Below are positions 37,129-56,026 of a stretch of 64,000 nt of DNA, piece after piece (positions within the stretch are counted from its first letter, which is position 1; each line of letters opens with the position of its first letter). The DNA comes from Candidatus Vecturithrix granuli. GTDB taxonomy: Bacteria > Moduliflexota > Moduliflexia > Moduliflexales > Moduliflexaceae. The stretch spans positions 478,245-542,244 of the forward strand of contig DF820467.1 in the NCBI GenBank assembly GCA_000739535.1, given 5' to 3'. The position numbers and the translations under genes were made by a program. Below the pieces are notes generated by a model. That model saw only the letters and a program-made list of their open reading frames with translations, was not told the DNA's origin and searched no databases.

Positions 37129-37386
37129 CCAAGCATCGTTGTTCTCCATCGCTCTGGCAACCCGGCTATCTTATATTTTTCTAAGACCCGTGGCTTTCCG
37201 TCCCATTTTCACAAATGGTTTGGCTTTATCTACCGAAACTGTTCTTTTTGAACAATGATTAATGCACTTATCATGCCAACATCGGGAAAAAATCCATACA
37301 ACGTGCTAATCCCTTGAAAAGACAAGCGTAAGAGATCAATAGGGCGTAATGATTGACATAAAAAAACCTTGAAAAATTCTTAAAAA

Positions 37387-49583: not shown

Positions 49584-49676
49584 GAGAGTGAAACATGAAT
49601 GAATGGAGAATATACACTTACTTATTCAGAGAATAACGGGTGAATAATGTCTCTATACCATAGAGGAGAATTAACG

Positions 49677-51038
49677 ATGCAAAGACGACAAGCAACAAAG
49701 AGTTTAGAAAAAAGTGGGTATATCTTGAAATTACGACGTATTCCCTGGATGATTCTCGCACTGATATTTCTCTTTATGAGTATCCAGGGTTGCCAAAAGG
49801 AAGCGGTCTCTGAAAAACAGAACGATACGGTTAAACTCATCAAGCTGTATACGGTACGAGATGCCGCAAACGGGACCATACGACGGGAGTATCCCGGTGT
49901 CACCAAAGCCAGTCAAAGGGCCGAATTAGCCTTCCGAGTACCGGGGCAATTAATGGAATTCTCTGTTAAGGAAGGACAGCATGTTCATAAAGGAGAACTG
50001 CTCGCACGCCTCGATCAGCGGGATTATACCAACGTTGTCAAGCAAGCGTCATTCGCTTTACAAGCGGCGAGCGCAGAACTGAAAGCCATGCAGTCCGGGC
50101 GTCCTGAAGAGATCAGGCAACTGCAAGCGAATGTCAAAGCCACCCAGGCTCAACTGGACGAAGTGACAACGCGTTATAAACGCTATCAGCAATTATTCAC
50201 AGAGAAAGTGATTTCAAAACAACAGCTTGATGGAGTTAAAGCGGAATATGATGTTGCTCTGTCTTTGTTGGAAGCGGCTGAAGAAAAACTGAAACAAGCA
50301 GAACAGGGGGCGCGGCAGGAAGAGATCGAAGCCCAGCAGTCCAAGATCCGCATGTTGGAAGCCCAGTTACAGGATGCGACCAGTAAATTATCGGATACCG
50401 AGTTACACGCCCCTTTTGACGGCGTGGTGGGCAAAACCTTTGTGGAAAACTTTGAAAATATTCAAGCCAAACAGCCCATTGTATTGCTGCACGCCCTGTC
50501 TCAGCTTGAAGTCGTCGTGAGCATTCCGGAAGTGGATGTTGTCAGCGCCGGACGCCTGGGGGCCTCGCTTCAGGAAGTGATCGACGCGATACTTGGTGAA
50601 TTCGTCGCCGTTTTCCCAGCCTATCCGGATCGTACATTTCCGCTCACGCTGAAGGCCTACGAAACCGATCGGGATGCGGCCACTCAAACCTATCAGGTCA
50701 CGTTCACCATGGAACAGCCGGAAAATATGCAAATTATAGCCGGGATGAATGTGACCGTTCGAGGACAGATAAACAGCCAATGGTTAGGGGAGCAATCAAC
50801 CATCCTGATTCCTAGCAGTGCAGTTTTTGCCGATTCCTCCGGGCAAGCGAGTGTCTGGCTCGTCGATCCGGAAGTGCAGCGAGTAACACTTCAACCTGTT
50901 GAACTTGGCCTCTGGCATCAGGATATGATCGAGATTCTTACCGGCGTGAATGTGGGGGATACGCTAGCGATATCAGCGGTACAGAGCTTACAGAACGGCA
51001 TGAAAGTGAAGCAGATCCCTGATTTGGGGGAATTATAG
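49677..51038 (+). CDS. RND efflux periplasmic adaptor (membrane-fusion lipoprotein)
   Basis: A 453-residue HlyD/AcrA-type adaptor. The signal ends IQGC, a lipobox, so it is probably a lipoprotein. LAFRVPGQLMEFSVKEGQHV and KGELLARLDQRDYTNVV form the lipoyl half-motif. A long coiled coil (about 120-240) bears LQANVKATQAQLDEVTTRYK. ELHAPFDGVVGKTFVE is the second lipoyl half, and a beta-barrel with IPSSAVFADSSGQASVWLVD follows. It joins the RND pump to an outer-membrane duct, not encoded here. AGGAG eight bases upstream of 49677 fixes the start. Confidence 0.94.
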   Translation: MQRRQATKSLEKSGYILKLRRIPWMILALIFLFMSIQGCQKEAVSEKQNDTVKLIKLYTVRDAANGTIRREYPGVTKASQRAELAFRVPGQLMEFSVKEGQHVHKGELLARLDQRDYTNVVKQASFALQAASAELKAMQSGRPEEIRQLQANVKATQAQLDEVTTRYKRYQQLFTEKVISKQQLDGVKAEYDVALSLLEAAEEKLKQAEQGARQEEIEAQQSKIRMLEAQLQDATSKLSDTELHAPFDGVVGKTFVENFENIQAKQPIVLLHALSQLEVVVSIPEVDVVSAGRLGASLQEVIDAILGEFVAVFPAYPDRTFPLTLKAYETDRDAATQTYQVTFTMEQPENMQIIAGMNVTVRGQINSQWLGEQSTILIPSSAVFADSSGQASVWLVDPEVQRVTLQPVELGLWHQDMIEILTGVNVGDTLAISAVQSLQNGMKVKQIPDLGEL

Positions 51039-51043
51039 GAAGG

Positions 51044-52606
51044 GTGACAAATATGAATCTTGGAGAATTGGCTATTCGAAAAAAAACCAGTACCTTAGTC
51101 GTAACCGCATTTCTCATCGTCGGGGGAATGATGTCGTATTTTCAACTCGGACGTCTGGAAGACCCCGAATTTACGATAAAGGAAGCGATAATAGTGACAA
51201 CCTATCCTGGAGCGGCAGCCGAAGAGGTCGAGCGGGAAGTAACCGACGTGATTGAACGGGCTGTCCAGCAAATGGGAGAATTAAAAGAGATCTCCTCAAC
51301 CTCGCAACCAGAGCTATCGATCGTTCAAGCCACGATGAAAGATCGTAACGCCGGCGAAGAGTTAGAATTACTTTGGAATGAATTGCGCAATAAAGTAGGC
51401 GATGCTCAGGTTGAACTTCCCCCTGGGGCGGGGCCGTCAATTGTCAAGGACGATTTTGGCGACGTGTATGGCGTCTTTCTGGCCATTACCGGGCAGGGCT
51501 ACAGCTATCAGGAGTTAAAGCAAAGCGCGAAATATTTGCAGCGTGAATTACTGTTGGTCAAGAATGTCGCTCGCATTGAAATTTTTGGCGAACGGGATGA
51601 ACGCATCTATGTGGAAATGTCGCGTGACAAGTTGTCGCAATTCGGAATATCGCTGGAAATGGTTCTGGCTCTGCTATCGGCGAAGAATCTGGTGACTGAC
51701 GCCGGACAGGCCTATACAGCCGCGGAACGGATTCAACTCCGCCCAACAGGCAGCATTGATTCGGTCGAAGAAATGAGCAATTTGGTGATCAGTCAATTCA
51801 CTCCGGATGGAGATCGGGTTCTGCGTCTAGGGGATATTGCGACGGTGACGCGCGGCTATATGGACCCGCCGTCTACAATTTTCCGTGTAAACGGGCAGCC
51901 TGCAATCGGACTGGCTATATCAACTGTAAAAGGCGGAAATGTTGTGGATATGGGAAAAGATTTACAGCAATGCCTGGACACCTTGCTGCCGAACTTACCT
52001 TTTGGTATAGAACTCCACAAAATTGCCATGCAATCTGAAATCGTGACGTCTGCAATTAATGGCTTCATGATTAACCTGGCCGAGGCTGTGGCGATCGTGT
52101 TTGTGGTTCTGATGCTGGCGATGGGATTCCATTCCGGCGTATTGATTGGGGCCGTGCTGGTGATCACGATTGCCGGAACCCTGATCGGGATGAATATGCT
52201 TGGCATTCTGATGGAACGTATTTCGTTGGGCGCGCTCATTCTGGCCCTGGGTATGCTGGTGGACAATGCGATTGTGATCGCCGAGGGGATGATGTTCCGG
52301 CTGCGGCGAGGGGAGGCCATTCTGGAGTCTGTTCGTGTTGTAGTCGGACAAAATGCTTTACCGCTTGTTGGGGCGACGCTGGTTACAATCTTTGCCTTCG
52401 GCTCGGTTGGCGTCTCTGAAAGCACCGCAGGCGAGATGATGCATTCCTTGTTTGTGGTGATCGTCCTTTCATTATTGCTTAGCTGGGGAACGGCGGTGAC
52501 GATTACGCCGCTTTTCTGCACTTGGGCTTATAAACCGGATAAAGGCAGCACAGGAGATTATGATCTGTATCAGCACGGTTTTTTAAGGTGTACCGCAAAT
52601 TTTTGA
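51044..52606 (+). CDS. RND efflux transporter, N-terminal half (frame broken)
   Basis: The first 520 residues of an AcrB-type pump: TM1 (STLVVTAFLIVGGMMSYFQL), porter segments (PGAAAEEVEREVTDVIERAV) and TM2-6. TM4 carries LGMLVDNAIVIAEGM with the proton-relay Asp. The frame ends after TM6 region with a TGA at 52604. The second half continues in the -1 frame. The break is at GG T TTT TTA AGG (52577-52588). See the half at 52588 for the rest. Confidence 0.92.
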   Translation: MTNMNLGELAIRKKTSTLVVTAFLIVGGMMSYFQLGRLEDPEFTIKEAIIVTTYPGAAAEEVEREVTDVIERAVQQMGELKEISSTSQPELSIVQATMKDRNAGEELELLWNELRNKVGDAQVELPPGAGPSIVKDDFGDVYGVFLAITGQGYSYQELKQSAKYLQRELLLVKNVARIEIFGERDERIYVEMSRDKLSQFGISLEMVLALLSAKNLVTDAGQAYTAAERIQLRPTGSIDSVEEMSNLVISQFTPDGDRVLRLGDIATVTRGYMDPPSTIFRVNGQPAIGLAISTVKGGNVVDMGKDLQQCLDTLLPNLPFGIELHKIAMQSEIVTSAINGFMINLAEAVAIVFVVLMLAMGFHSGVLIGAVLVITIAGTLIGMNMLGILMERISLGALILALGMLVDNAIVIAEGMMFRLRRGEAILESVRVVVGQNALPLVGATLVTIFAFGSVGVSESTAGEMMHSLFVVIVLSLLLSWGTAVTITPLFCTWAYKPDKGSTGDYDLYQHGFLRCTANF

Positions 52607-54159
52607 TCGCAGTTCTCCGCCACCGCTGGCTGGTCATTTTTGTCATGCTGATCCTCTTAGCGGCGGCCGCGTTCGGATTTACCCGGCTCGGCGATGCGTT
52701 CTTTCCGGAGACCACCCGCGCTCAGTTTCAGATCGATGTCTGGCTGCCTGAAGGGACACAGATTTATGAGACCGAGCGGACGATACAACAGATTGAAGAC
52801 TATATACGCACGCTGGACCATGTCACCGATATTGCCTCAGCGATCGGCCGGGGAATGCCGCGCTTTCTTCTGTCCTATACCCCGAAGAGCCTGAATGCCA
52901 GCTATGCCTACCTTCTAGTCTCGGTGGATGATTATCAGCACATTAATAGCCTGAAACAGCAACTCCAAACGGATCTGGAAACGCGTTTTTCAGATATCGT
53001 TCCCGTTGTCTATAAGTTTAATTTTGGGCCTGGCCATTTCGCTGCAACCCCGATTGAGGCGCGTTTCAATGGACCAGACAAAAAAGTTTTACGGAAACTG
53101 GCGGAACAAGCGATGACAATCATGCACGAGGATGGGGGAATCGTCGGAATTCAACATGATTGGCGCGGTATGGCCAAAGCCTATCGCCCGATCTTGAATG
53201 AAGTGCCGGCCCAGAATCTTGGTATCGATCGCAGGGCTGTGGCAAACGTATTGGCAAGCGCGTTTGATGGGAGCACGGTTGGAGTCTATCGGGAAAACGA
53301 CGAATTGATCCCGATTGTCGCTCGAGCGCCTCAAAATGAACGTATCAACGGGCTGTCTGAAATACAAAATTTATGGATTTGGAGCCCGATTGCCGGACAG
53401 AATATCCCTTTGCAACAAGTGATGCTTGGCTATAAGACCTTTTTTGAAGACGGGCAGATCCGGCGCTTCGATCGAAAACGCGCGATTACGGTTTTGGGCG
53501 CGCCCGCCACTGAGATGGCCTCAACAGCCCTGGCCCGAATTCGTCCCCAAATTGAAGCTATCGAACTGCCGATAGGTTATTCCCTCAAATGGGCTGGAGA
53601 AATCAAAGATTCCCGCGAATCTCTGGAGTCGGTGCTGGTTCCATTTCCGATGTTCATGGTGTTGATGCTGCTGATCACGATTTTCCTCTTCAATGCCTTA
53701 CGTCCAGCCCTAATCATCTGGTTGTGCGTTCCACTGGCTATCATCGGGGTCGTGAGCGGATTGTTGGTTGCGGATCAGCCCTTGAATTTTGTCGCAGTGT
53801 TAGGCCTGCTGAGCCTGACCGGCATGTTGATCAAAAATGCAATTGTCCTGCTGGATCAGATCGAGCTGGAAATTCAATCCGGGAAATCCCGTTTCGAGGC
53901 AATTGTCGATTCCGGAGTCAGCCGGGCGCGGCCGGTGATGATGGCGGCCATGACCACTGTACTCGGTATGATTCCGCTTGTGTTCGACGCGTTTTTCGCG
54001 GCAATGGCGGTGACGATCATGACCGGGCTGACGTTTGCAGCGGTGTTGACCCTGGTGGTCGTCCCGGTGCTCTATTCGCTGTTTTATCACGTCAAACCGA
54101 ATGAGAGAACACTAAAACCTGAAAAGAAAACACTCGCAGCCGTAAGTAATTATCAATAA
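52588..54159 (+). CDS. RND efflux transporter, C-terminal half
   Basis: The remaining 523 residues: TM7 (LVIFVMLILLAAAAFGFTRL), the second porter (AFFPETTRAQFQIDVWLPEG) and TM8-12 with LLSLTGMLIKNAIVLLDQIE and AAMTTVLGMIPLVFDAFFAA. By itself it lacks a normal start. GTG at 52588 has no proper ribosome site, so it is best read as the continuation of the upstream frame through a -1 shift or an undone single-base deletion. Together the two halves are about 1040 residues, the normal RND length. Confidence 0.9.
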   Translation: MYRKFLIAVLRHRWLVIFVMLILLAAAAFGFTRLGDAFFPETTRAQFQIDVWLPEGTQIYETERTIQQIEDYIRTLDHVTDIASAIGRGMPRFLLSYTPKSLNASYAYLLVSVDDYQHINSLKQQLQTDLETRFSDIVPVVYKFNFGPGHFAATPIEARFNGPDKKVLRKLAEQAMTIMHEDGGIVGIQHDWRGMAKAYRPILNEVPAQNLGIDRRAVANVLASAFDGSTVGVYRENDELIPIVARAPQNERINGLSEIQNLWIWSPIAGQNIPLQQVMLGYKTFFEDGQIRRFDRKRAITVLGAPATEMASTALARIRPQIEAIELPIGYSLKWAGEIKDSRESLESVLVPFPMFMVLMLLITIFLFNALRPALIIWLCVPLAIIGVVSGLLVADQPLNFVAVLGLLSLTGMLIKNAIVLLDQIELEIQSGKSRFEAIVDSGVSRARPVMMAAMTTVLGMIPLVFDAFFAAMAVTIMTGLTFAAVLTLVVVPVLYSLFYHVKPNERTLKPEKKTLAAVSNYQ

Positions 54160-54313: not shown

Positions 54314-55570
54314 TCAAATTTTGAACGCGCCCACGACTTCTTGCAAACGGTCGGCCAGGATGGCAAGTTCTTCAGCCGCTTTTTGCACATCAACCGCTTG
54401 CGTTGAAGAATCGTGTACCATGTTTGCGACATCGGTGATAGTACTGGCGATTTGGTTGCTGTCATTCGCCGTTTCAAAAATATGGCGCGAAATCTCATTG
54501 GCCGTGATGGACTGTTCTTCAACCGATACTCCGATTGAACGAGAAATGTCATGAATTTGCGTTGTAATATTCGCTATGTGCGTAATCGCGTTGACTGCGT
54601 TGCTGCTGCTGGTTTGAATGGCTTCGACGCGTTGGGTGACATTTTTCGCAGAAGCGGTAATTTCGCGCGACAGATCTTTCACCTCACTGGCGACGACTGC
54701 AAAACCCTTGCCGCTGTCGCCGGCTCGCGCGGCTTCAATGGTCGCATTTAAGGCCAGGAGATTCGTCTGCTGCGTAATGGTGGTAATCACGTTGATGATA
54801 TCGCCGATTTCCTGAGAACGGCCTTCCAGGTGGGTCATGGTGTTATTAGCAGTACTGGCCGTGTCCACCGCTGTTTTAACAATCTCTCGGACCTGGTTAA
54901 TATGCTGAGAAACTTCGCGGATACTGGCCGCAAACTCTTCCATGGCGGTTGAAATCTCATTCATATTTTTATTAATCTGTTGGCTATGGGAAGAAACAGT
55001 GTGCACCTGTCGCGAAGCCTGTTCAGCATTTGAGGCCATTTGTGCGCTAATTTGTGTCAACTTTTCCGAGGCCGAACGAAGCTGTGACGATTCTGCAATA
55101 ACGTGACAGACGTGCTGGCGCAGCGACTTCATATTCTGAAAGGCAATTCCCAGAAGATCATACTCATTTTTCGGCTGAAGCTCCCGGCTTAAGTCGCCTT
55201 GAGCAATATCAGTGGCAGCGGAAGCCATTTCTTGCAGATATGCCGACATGCGCTGAAACGCTTTTCCCAATTGATCTTGTGTACTTCGAGGAGTTACCTT
55301 ACGCCGTAAATCGCCTTCCGAGATGCTGAGGGCGACATCAGCGATCGCCTTGATATAGGCAATCATGGCTTCAAAGGCATGGGTAAAGGATCCGATTTCA
55401 TTGCGCGACCGGACAACAGGCAGGCGCACGTCAATATCTCCCTCGGCAATTTGCCTGGCAACCCGGGTCAGATGGCGCAGTGGAATGGTGATATTACTTC
55501 TGACTAAGGCCAATACGACAATACTTTCAACCGCCATAATCAGCAAGAAATTGATGATCACATTTGCCAT
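54314..55570 (-). CDS. Chemoreceptor, HAMP and signalling part
   Basis: A 418-residue part of a methyl-accepting chemotaxis protein: TM2 (VIINFLLIMAVESIVVLALV), HAMP (about 28-80), more HAMP-like repeats, then the MA domain with hairpin tip EIGDIINVITTITQQTNLLA followed by LNATIEAARAG. It should join CheA and CheW. It has no periplasmic sensor because a TAA at 55583 cuts it from its own N-terminal half, which is in the same reading frame. An ATG at 55570 lacks a ribosome site. Confidence 0.88.
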   Translation of the reverse strand: MANVIINFLLIMAVESIVVLALVRSNITIPLRHLTRVARQIAEGDIDVRLPVVRSRNEIGSFTHAFEAMIAYIKAIADVALSISEGDLRRKVTPRSTQDQLGKAFQRMSAYLQEMASAATDIAQGDLSRELQPKNEYDLLGIAFQNMKSLRQHVCHVIAESSQLRSASEKLTQISAQMASNAEQASRQVHTVSSHSQQINKNMNEISTAMEEFAASIREVSQHINQVREIVKTAVDTASTANNTMTHLEGRSQEIGDIINVITTITQQTNLLALNATIEAARAGDSGKGFAVVASEVKDLSREITASAKNVTQRVEAIQTSSSNAVNAITHIANITTQIHDISRSIGVSVEEQSITANEISRHIFETANDSNQIASTITDVANMVHDSSTQAVDVQKAAEELAILADRLQEVVGAFKI

Positions 55571-55582
55571 GGCTGCGTGAAT

Positions 55583-56026
55583 TTATTCAGTGCCAAATTG
55601 CCGCGAGAACACGACTTCGAGGGTTGCCAGCGTTTGTTCTGCATGCGTCAACTCTACAGTATGAACAATGTCTTCCAGATACTCCGATGGAGAAACTCTT
55701 TCTTCAAGAAAGTTGTTAATCTGCTGTGAATTCGGAAGTTTTCCGAAATAATGAGAAGGAACGTTCTGTTCGTCAATTTTGATAGCAAGAATATCCGGCG
55801 CACTTAAATAGGATTGAATCACATTGTCAATCCGTTCCCGTTCTAAATCAAACAACAGATTGCTGAGAATCAGAGCGAGCGATTTCATGGTATTTTCTTC
55901 TTTTTCTTGTAAAAACTCCGTATAGCGCTGCCACTGTTGATGTACCCCATACACCGCAAATAAGGCCATCACAACAAAGAGTACAACAGCGATCTGGAAG
56001 ACAAGTTTCGTTCCGATACGTTTCAT
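55583..56026 (-). CDS. Chemoreceptor, N-terminal sensor part
   Basis: A 147-residue frame: TM1 (KLVFQIAVVLFVVMALFAVY) and a small periplasmic region (ILSNLLFDLERERIDNVIQS). It ends FSRQFGTE before TAA. Twelve bases later (IHAA) the same frame continues into TM2 and HAMP of the chemoreceptor. The two are one gene with a nonsense codon, 569 residues in all. It is five bases downstream of the binding-protein gene, so both are co-transcribed and may sense the same ligand. Confidence 0.85.
   Translation of the reverse strand: MKRIGTKLVFQIAVVLFVVMALFAVYGVHQQWQRYTEFLQEKEENTMKSLALILSNLLFDLERERIDNVIQSYLSAPDILAIKIDEQNVPSHYFGKLPNSQQINNFLEERVSPSEYLEDIVHTVELTHAEQTLATLEVVFSRQFGTE

Follow-up and report, generated by a model that had tools for sequence, protein, structure and literature searches.

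A frame change at an in-phase T TTT TTA heptamer divides an RND permease gene of Candidatus Vecturithrix granuli, probably through a recent single-base indel

The locus and its genomic setting

Candidatus Vecturithrix granuli is an uncultured wastewater bacterium represented by UASB270 (KSB3/Modulibacteria), a metagenome bin of 8,384,694 bases in 21 contigs that was sequenced on Illumina MiSeq to 38x average coverage; its assembly used SPAdes in only-assembler mode and filtering of homopolymer reads (PMC4312070). The stretch analyzed here, referred to as the window, comprises 64,000 nucleotides of this genome (C17:478245-542244). On its forward strand, a drug-efflux-type RND permease gene (PF00873) lies downstream of an apparently intact gene for the RND periplasmic adaptor, or membrane fusion, protein (49647..51038; NCBIfam TIGR01730 RND_mfp, E 2e-64, above the cut-off). 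The permease occupies two frames instead of one ORF of about 1030 codons. Its first half, in the zero frame, spans 51044..52606 (PF00873 profile 3-495, E 1e-75) and ends in RCTANF* past a T run; its second half, in the -1 frame, spans 52588..54159 (profile 516-1020, E 1e-70), with possible starts at GTG 52588 and TTG 52603. Seven intact, full-length RND permease paralogues are encoded elsewhere in the genome. The sole Rfam match in the window is a c-di-GMP-I-GGC riboswitch (RF03167) on the reverse strand (37152-37233, 68 bits).

Anatomy of the frame change

The junction reads CAG CAC GGT TTT TTA AGG TGT ACC GCA AAT TTT TGA, with GGT at 52577 and the zero-frame TGA at 52604-52606. In the -1 frame, a TGA at 52561-52563 is followed by open sequence from 52564 to 54159. 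The two frames thus share an open stretch of about 40 nt (52564..52603), the only one in which both are open and within which the frame change must lie. Homology narrows its position further: the zero frame fits through ...DLYQHG and the -1 frame from KVYRKFL... onward, which locates the change at the run of six T (52579-52584). This run forms part of a T TTT TTA heptamer (52579..52585) in phase with the zero frame. The original prediction, that the pump gene stops at 52604, continues in the -1 frame and is restored to its second half by a -1 shift alone across this in-phase heptamer, therefore stands in full.

The profile matches end at 495 and resume at 516, which puts the frame change in the cytoplasmic linker that joins the homologous transporter halves, between TM6 and TM7. 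Together, the two frames give full-length ACR_tran coverage (profile 3-495 plus 516-1020), and no further stop or frame change was found in either half. When the seven nearest homologues are used to define a set of invariant residues, 76 of 82 are kept in the first half and 55 of 60 in the second, or about 92%. This retention, combined with the lack of a second disabling change, argues that the break is recent (or tolerated).

Homologues across the junction

The 33 homologues checked, with identities reaching down to 24%, all span the junction in a single frame and without stops; four of them are 42-44% identical over nearly the whole length. None of the 33 carries T TTT TTA at this position, the nearest being only about 45% identical. 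A conserved slippery site is missing throughout this set. One distant homologue (24% identity), itself unbroken, carries an in-phase T TTT TTT close to the junction. A search of 59 related genomes, four genomes of the phylum, genome contigs, viral contigs and plasmids returned neither a close orthologue above 46% identity nor an unbroken allele in same-species or sister sequence.

Where half-length RND frames were examined in other genomes, the break lay at a different position or coincided with a contig end. Genes for RND permeases are split over two frames in two other genomes as well, away from the TM6-TM7 linker.

The heptamer and its surroundings

The heptamer satisfies the X_XXY_YYZ pattern of -1 frameshift sites, in phase, although such an occurrence is common by chance. 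Within genes in 1.26 Mb of the genome, in-phase T TTT TTA was counted 67 times, against 58.9 +/- 6.9 expected from codon shuffles. In-phase slippery heptamers are likewise not enriched at -1 overlaps between neighboring genes, where they were found in 5 of 105 cases as compared to 4 of 77 for the +1 frame; apart from the permease and a second candidate described below, the overlaps bearing such heptamers resembled ordinary neighbors within operons and were set aside. In the same 1.26 Mb, in-phase T TTT TTT is depleted within genes (78 versus 109.5 expected), and T TTT TTC and T TTT TTG lie above expectation.

Stimulatory elements were sought in both directions. Five folds, taken around the site and in the RNA that follows it, do not exceed dinucleotide shuffles in stability (z from -0.2 to +1.3, pseudoknots left out), in agreement with the earlier observation that no clear stem-loop follows the site. 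No Shine-Dalgarno (SD) stimulator occurs at the usual spacing: the nearest SD-like sequence, AGGAG (52552-52556), ends 22 nt before the heptamer. In dnaX, the SD stimulator is spaced by about 10 nt.

Interrupted genes elsewhere in the genome

Adjoining the broken pump gene, on the reverse strand, is a methyl-accepting chemotaxis receptor (MCP) gene (54314..56026) whose coding sequence is cut by an in-frame TAA (55583-55585). The stop falls between the sensor part and the TM2-HAMP-MCP part, the downstream piece carries the HAMP and MCPsignal domains, and the two pieces match successive parts of a single uninterrupted paralogue. A paralogue scan covering 2.46 Mb of the genome returned 14 candidate split pairs, from which manual reading retained about eight interrupted genes; most of the remaining candidates are apparently neighboring genes for homologous ABC transporter ATPases and were set aside by eye. 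On the strength of the scan and the MCP gene, interrupted genes are an ordinary feature of this genome. Those other than the permease have in-frame stops, or frame changes away from runs. Another chemotaxis receptor (C21:338107-339240) has an in-frame TAG inside its MCP signaling domain.

A second split at an in-phase slippery heptamer, A AAA AAG, raised the prospect of organism-wide use of such sites. This candidate was rejected, as the gene in question (C17:320576-321864) is an ushA-like remnant that lacks about 200 internal profile positions. It instead serves as a natural control, showing that slippery heptamers also occur where dead genes change frame. The surrounding region (C17:318816-324817) holds ushA-like 5'-nucleotidase genes in tandem, one intact, one the internally deleted remnant, and one carrying a +1 frame change.

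A recent indel as the probable origin

A recent single-base indel probably broke the permease gene, leaving a pseudogene or a within-population variant. Most simply, slipped-strand mispairing would have removed one T from the T run, converting NNT TTT TTT A to NNT TTT TTA, and the in-phase U_UUU_UUA would be a by-product of this loss. The broken gene would now make a truncated N-terminal half, and would be either a young pseudogene or an off variant in a population that the assembly happened to represent. We infer both the ancestral T run and the loss of function. Several hallmarks of a recent pseudogene are present, namely unbroken homologues, a single disruption, and two parts that are otherwise conserved. 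Among the three explanations first proposed (frameshifting, a one-T deletion in a T7 run, and a sequencing indel), the deletion is the best supported, considering the unbroken homologues and the conserved halves.

When an in-phase T7 run loses a T, the motif, the phase and the shift direction all arise together, so these are one fact and not three. The arrangement initially read as that of a -1 frameshift site is real and in phase, but it does not constitute independent evidence for frameshifting. Half of the exact T7 runs inside genes here (62 of 123) are in the phase where losing one T gives T TTT TTN, and in nine of these 62 the final base would be A.

Several observations count against an indel-derived pseudogene. 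The break lies in a short linker, the least harmful place for a split, which we estimate to make up about 3% of the length; both halves look undamaged; and a longer homopolymer in the same gene, A8 at 51079, is undisturbed. In addition, no unbroken allele was found in same-species or sister sequence to confirm the presumed length of the ancestral T run.

Alternative readings

Judged from sequence, the pump is unlikely to be functional still, whether by way of separately translated half-transporters, with re-initiation at the TTG, or by low-level -1 slippage. The first of these routes is quite unlikely. Under it, each half would be translated on its own, with coupled re-initiation at TTG 52603 or GTG 52588 giving the second, and the two would assemble as half-transporters in the manner of the separate SecD and SecF. 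Such a scheme would accord with a break that sits precisely where the TM6 half meets the TM7 half (profile 495 / 516), with a TTG that overlaps the TGA stop, and with the undamaged state of either half. However, neither start has a well-spaced SD sequence, as AAGG directly abuts the GTG and lies 15 nt from the TTG. Moreover, every homologue that crosses the linker is unbroken, and the half-length RND frames examined in other genomes do not share this breakpoint.

An error of sequencing or assembly in the T run, such that the real gene is unbroken, is very unlikely. The provenance of the sequence, a metagenome bin assembled in only-assembler mode with filtering of homopolymer reads, lends this explanation some weight, as does the recurrence of interrupted genes in the assembly. 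Against it stand the sequencing platform and depth, the lack of any N in the window, and the nature of the other interruptions, which consist of in-frame stops or of frame changes outside runs. Illumina MiSeq at such coverage rarely miscounts a six-base run. The sequencing indel first offered as an option is accordingly rendered improbable by the 38x MiSeq data and the N-free window, and keeps a small share of the probability. Separately, the metagenome bin may stand for one allele among several.

Low-level -1 slippage tolerated at U_UUU_UUA following an indel, which would supply a little full-length pump, is highly improbable. The in-phase heptamer would permit tandem slippage; however, a review describes U_UUU_UUA as much less shift-prone in Escherichia coli than A_AAA_AAG (PMC5009743), and no stimulator was found in the form of an SD sequence or a structure. 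Slippage during transcription has been surveyed in bacteria at runs of nine (PMC1088944), compared to the six present here. Slippage at this heptamer would also yield a different junction peptide than was predicted: the HIV U_UUU_UUA site gives 70-80% Leu (PMC5009743), and the main product would therefore be G-F-L-K. The predicted GFFKVYRKF holds only as a minor slippage product or for a gene with seven T.

Evolved programmed -1 frameshifting as a means of regulating the pump is almost certainly not at work, for it has the in-phase heptamer in its favor and nothing else, the heptamer being missing from all 33 homologues, slippery heptamers unenriched at -1 overlaps, the downstream RNA no more structured than shuffles, the AGGAG 22 nt upstream instead of about 10 nt as in dnaX, and the six-residue tail devoid of evident use.

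Implications

The permease gene is mainly a caution: a frame break that coincides with a slippery heptamer speaks only weakly for recoding, since the loss of a base from an in-phase homopolymer automatically gives both motif and phase. Were the pump functional after all, a frame change at a domain boundary would have been tolerated rather than destructive, and were both halves made, the locus would encode a natural split RND permease.

Comparison with known systems

Programmed -1 frameshifting in dnaX, IS elements and HIV gag-pol shares with the permease an in-phase X_XXY_YYZ heptamer. In contrast to those systems, the permease site is unconserved, has no stem-loop or pseudoknot that was found, a badly placed SD sequence, and a heptamer that is weak for bacteria. 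SecD and SecF, RND halves encoded as separate genes, present a parallel in that the split falls between two six-helix halves, whereas the second half of the permease is only putatively translated and its homologues are unsplit. MexK / TriC-type RND permeases (PDB 9xwg, 20yy, 6vej) and the plasmid-borne "efflux RND transporter permease subunit" of Vibrionaceae and Pseudoalteromonas belong to the same family and exhibit the same domain order across both halves; unlike the split permease, all are single uninterrupted ORFs.

The closest likeness is to the singleton frameshifted genes and pseudogenes of prokaryotes, with which the permease shares a Pfam-confirmed frame change, unbroken homologues and the lack of a conserved site (PMC3711429). 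Under that scheme, frame changes that are unclustered and lack a conserved site count as indel mutations or sequencing errors, not as programmed events (PMC3711429). The permease differs from these singletons only by a chance resemblance to a retroviral heptamer, and the locus looks like an ordinary gene that was recently broken.
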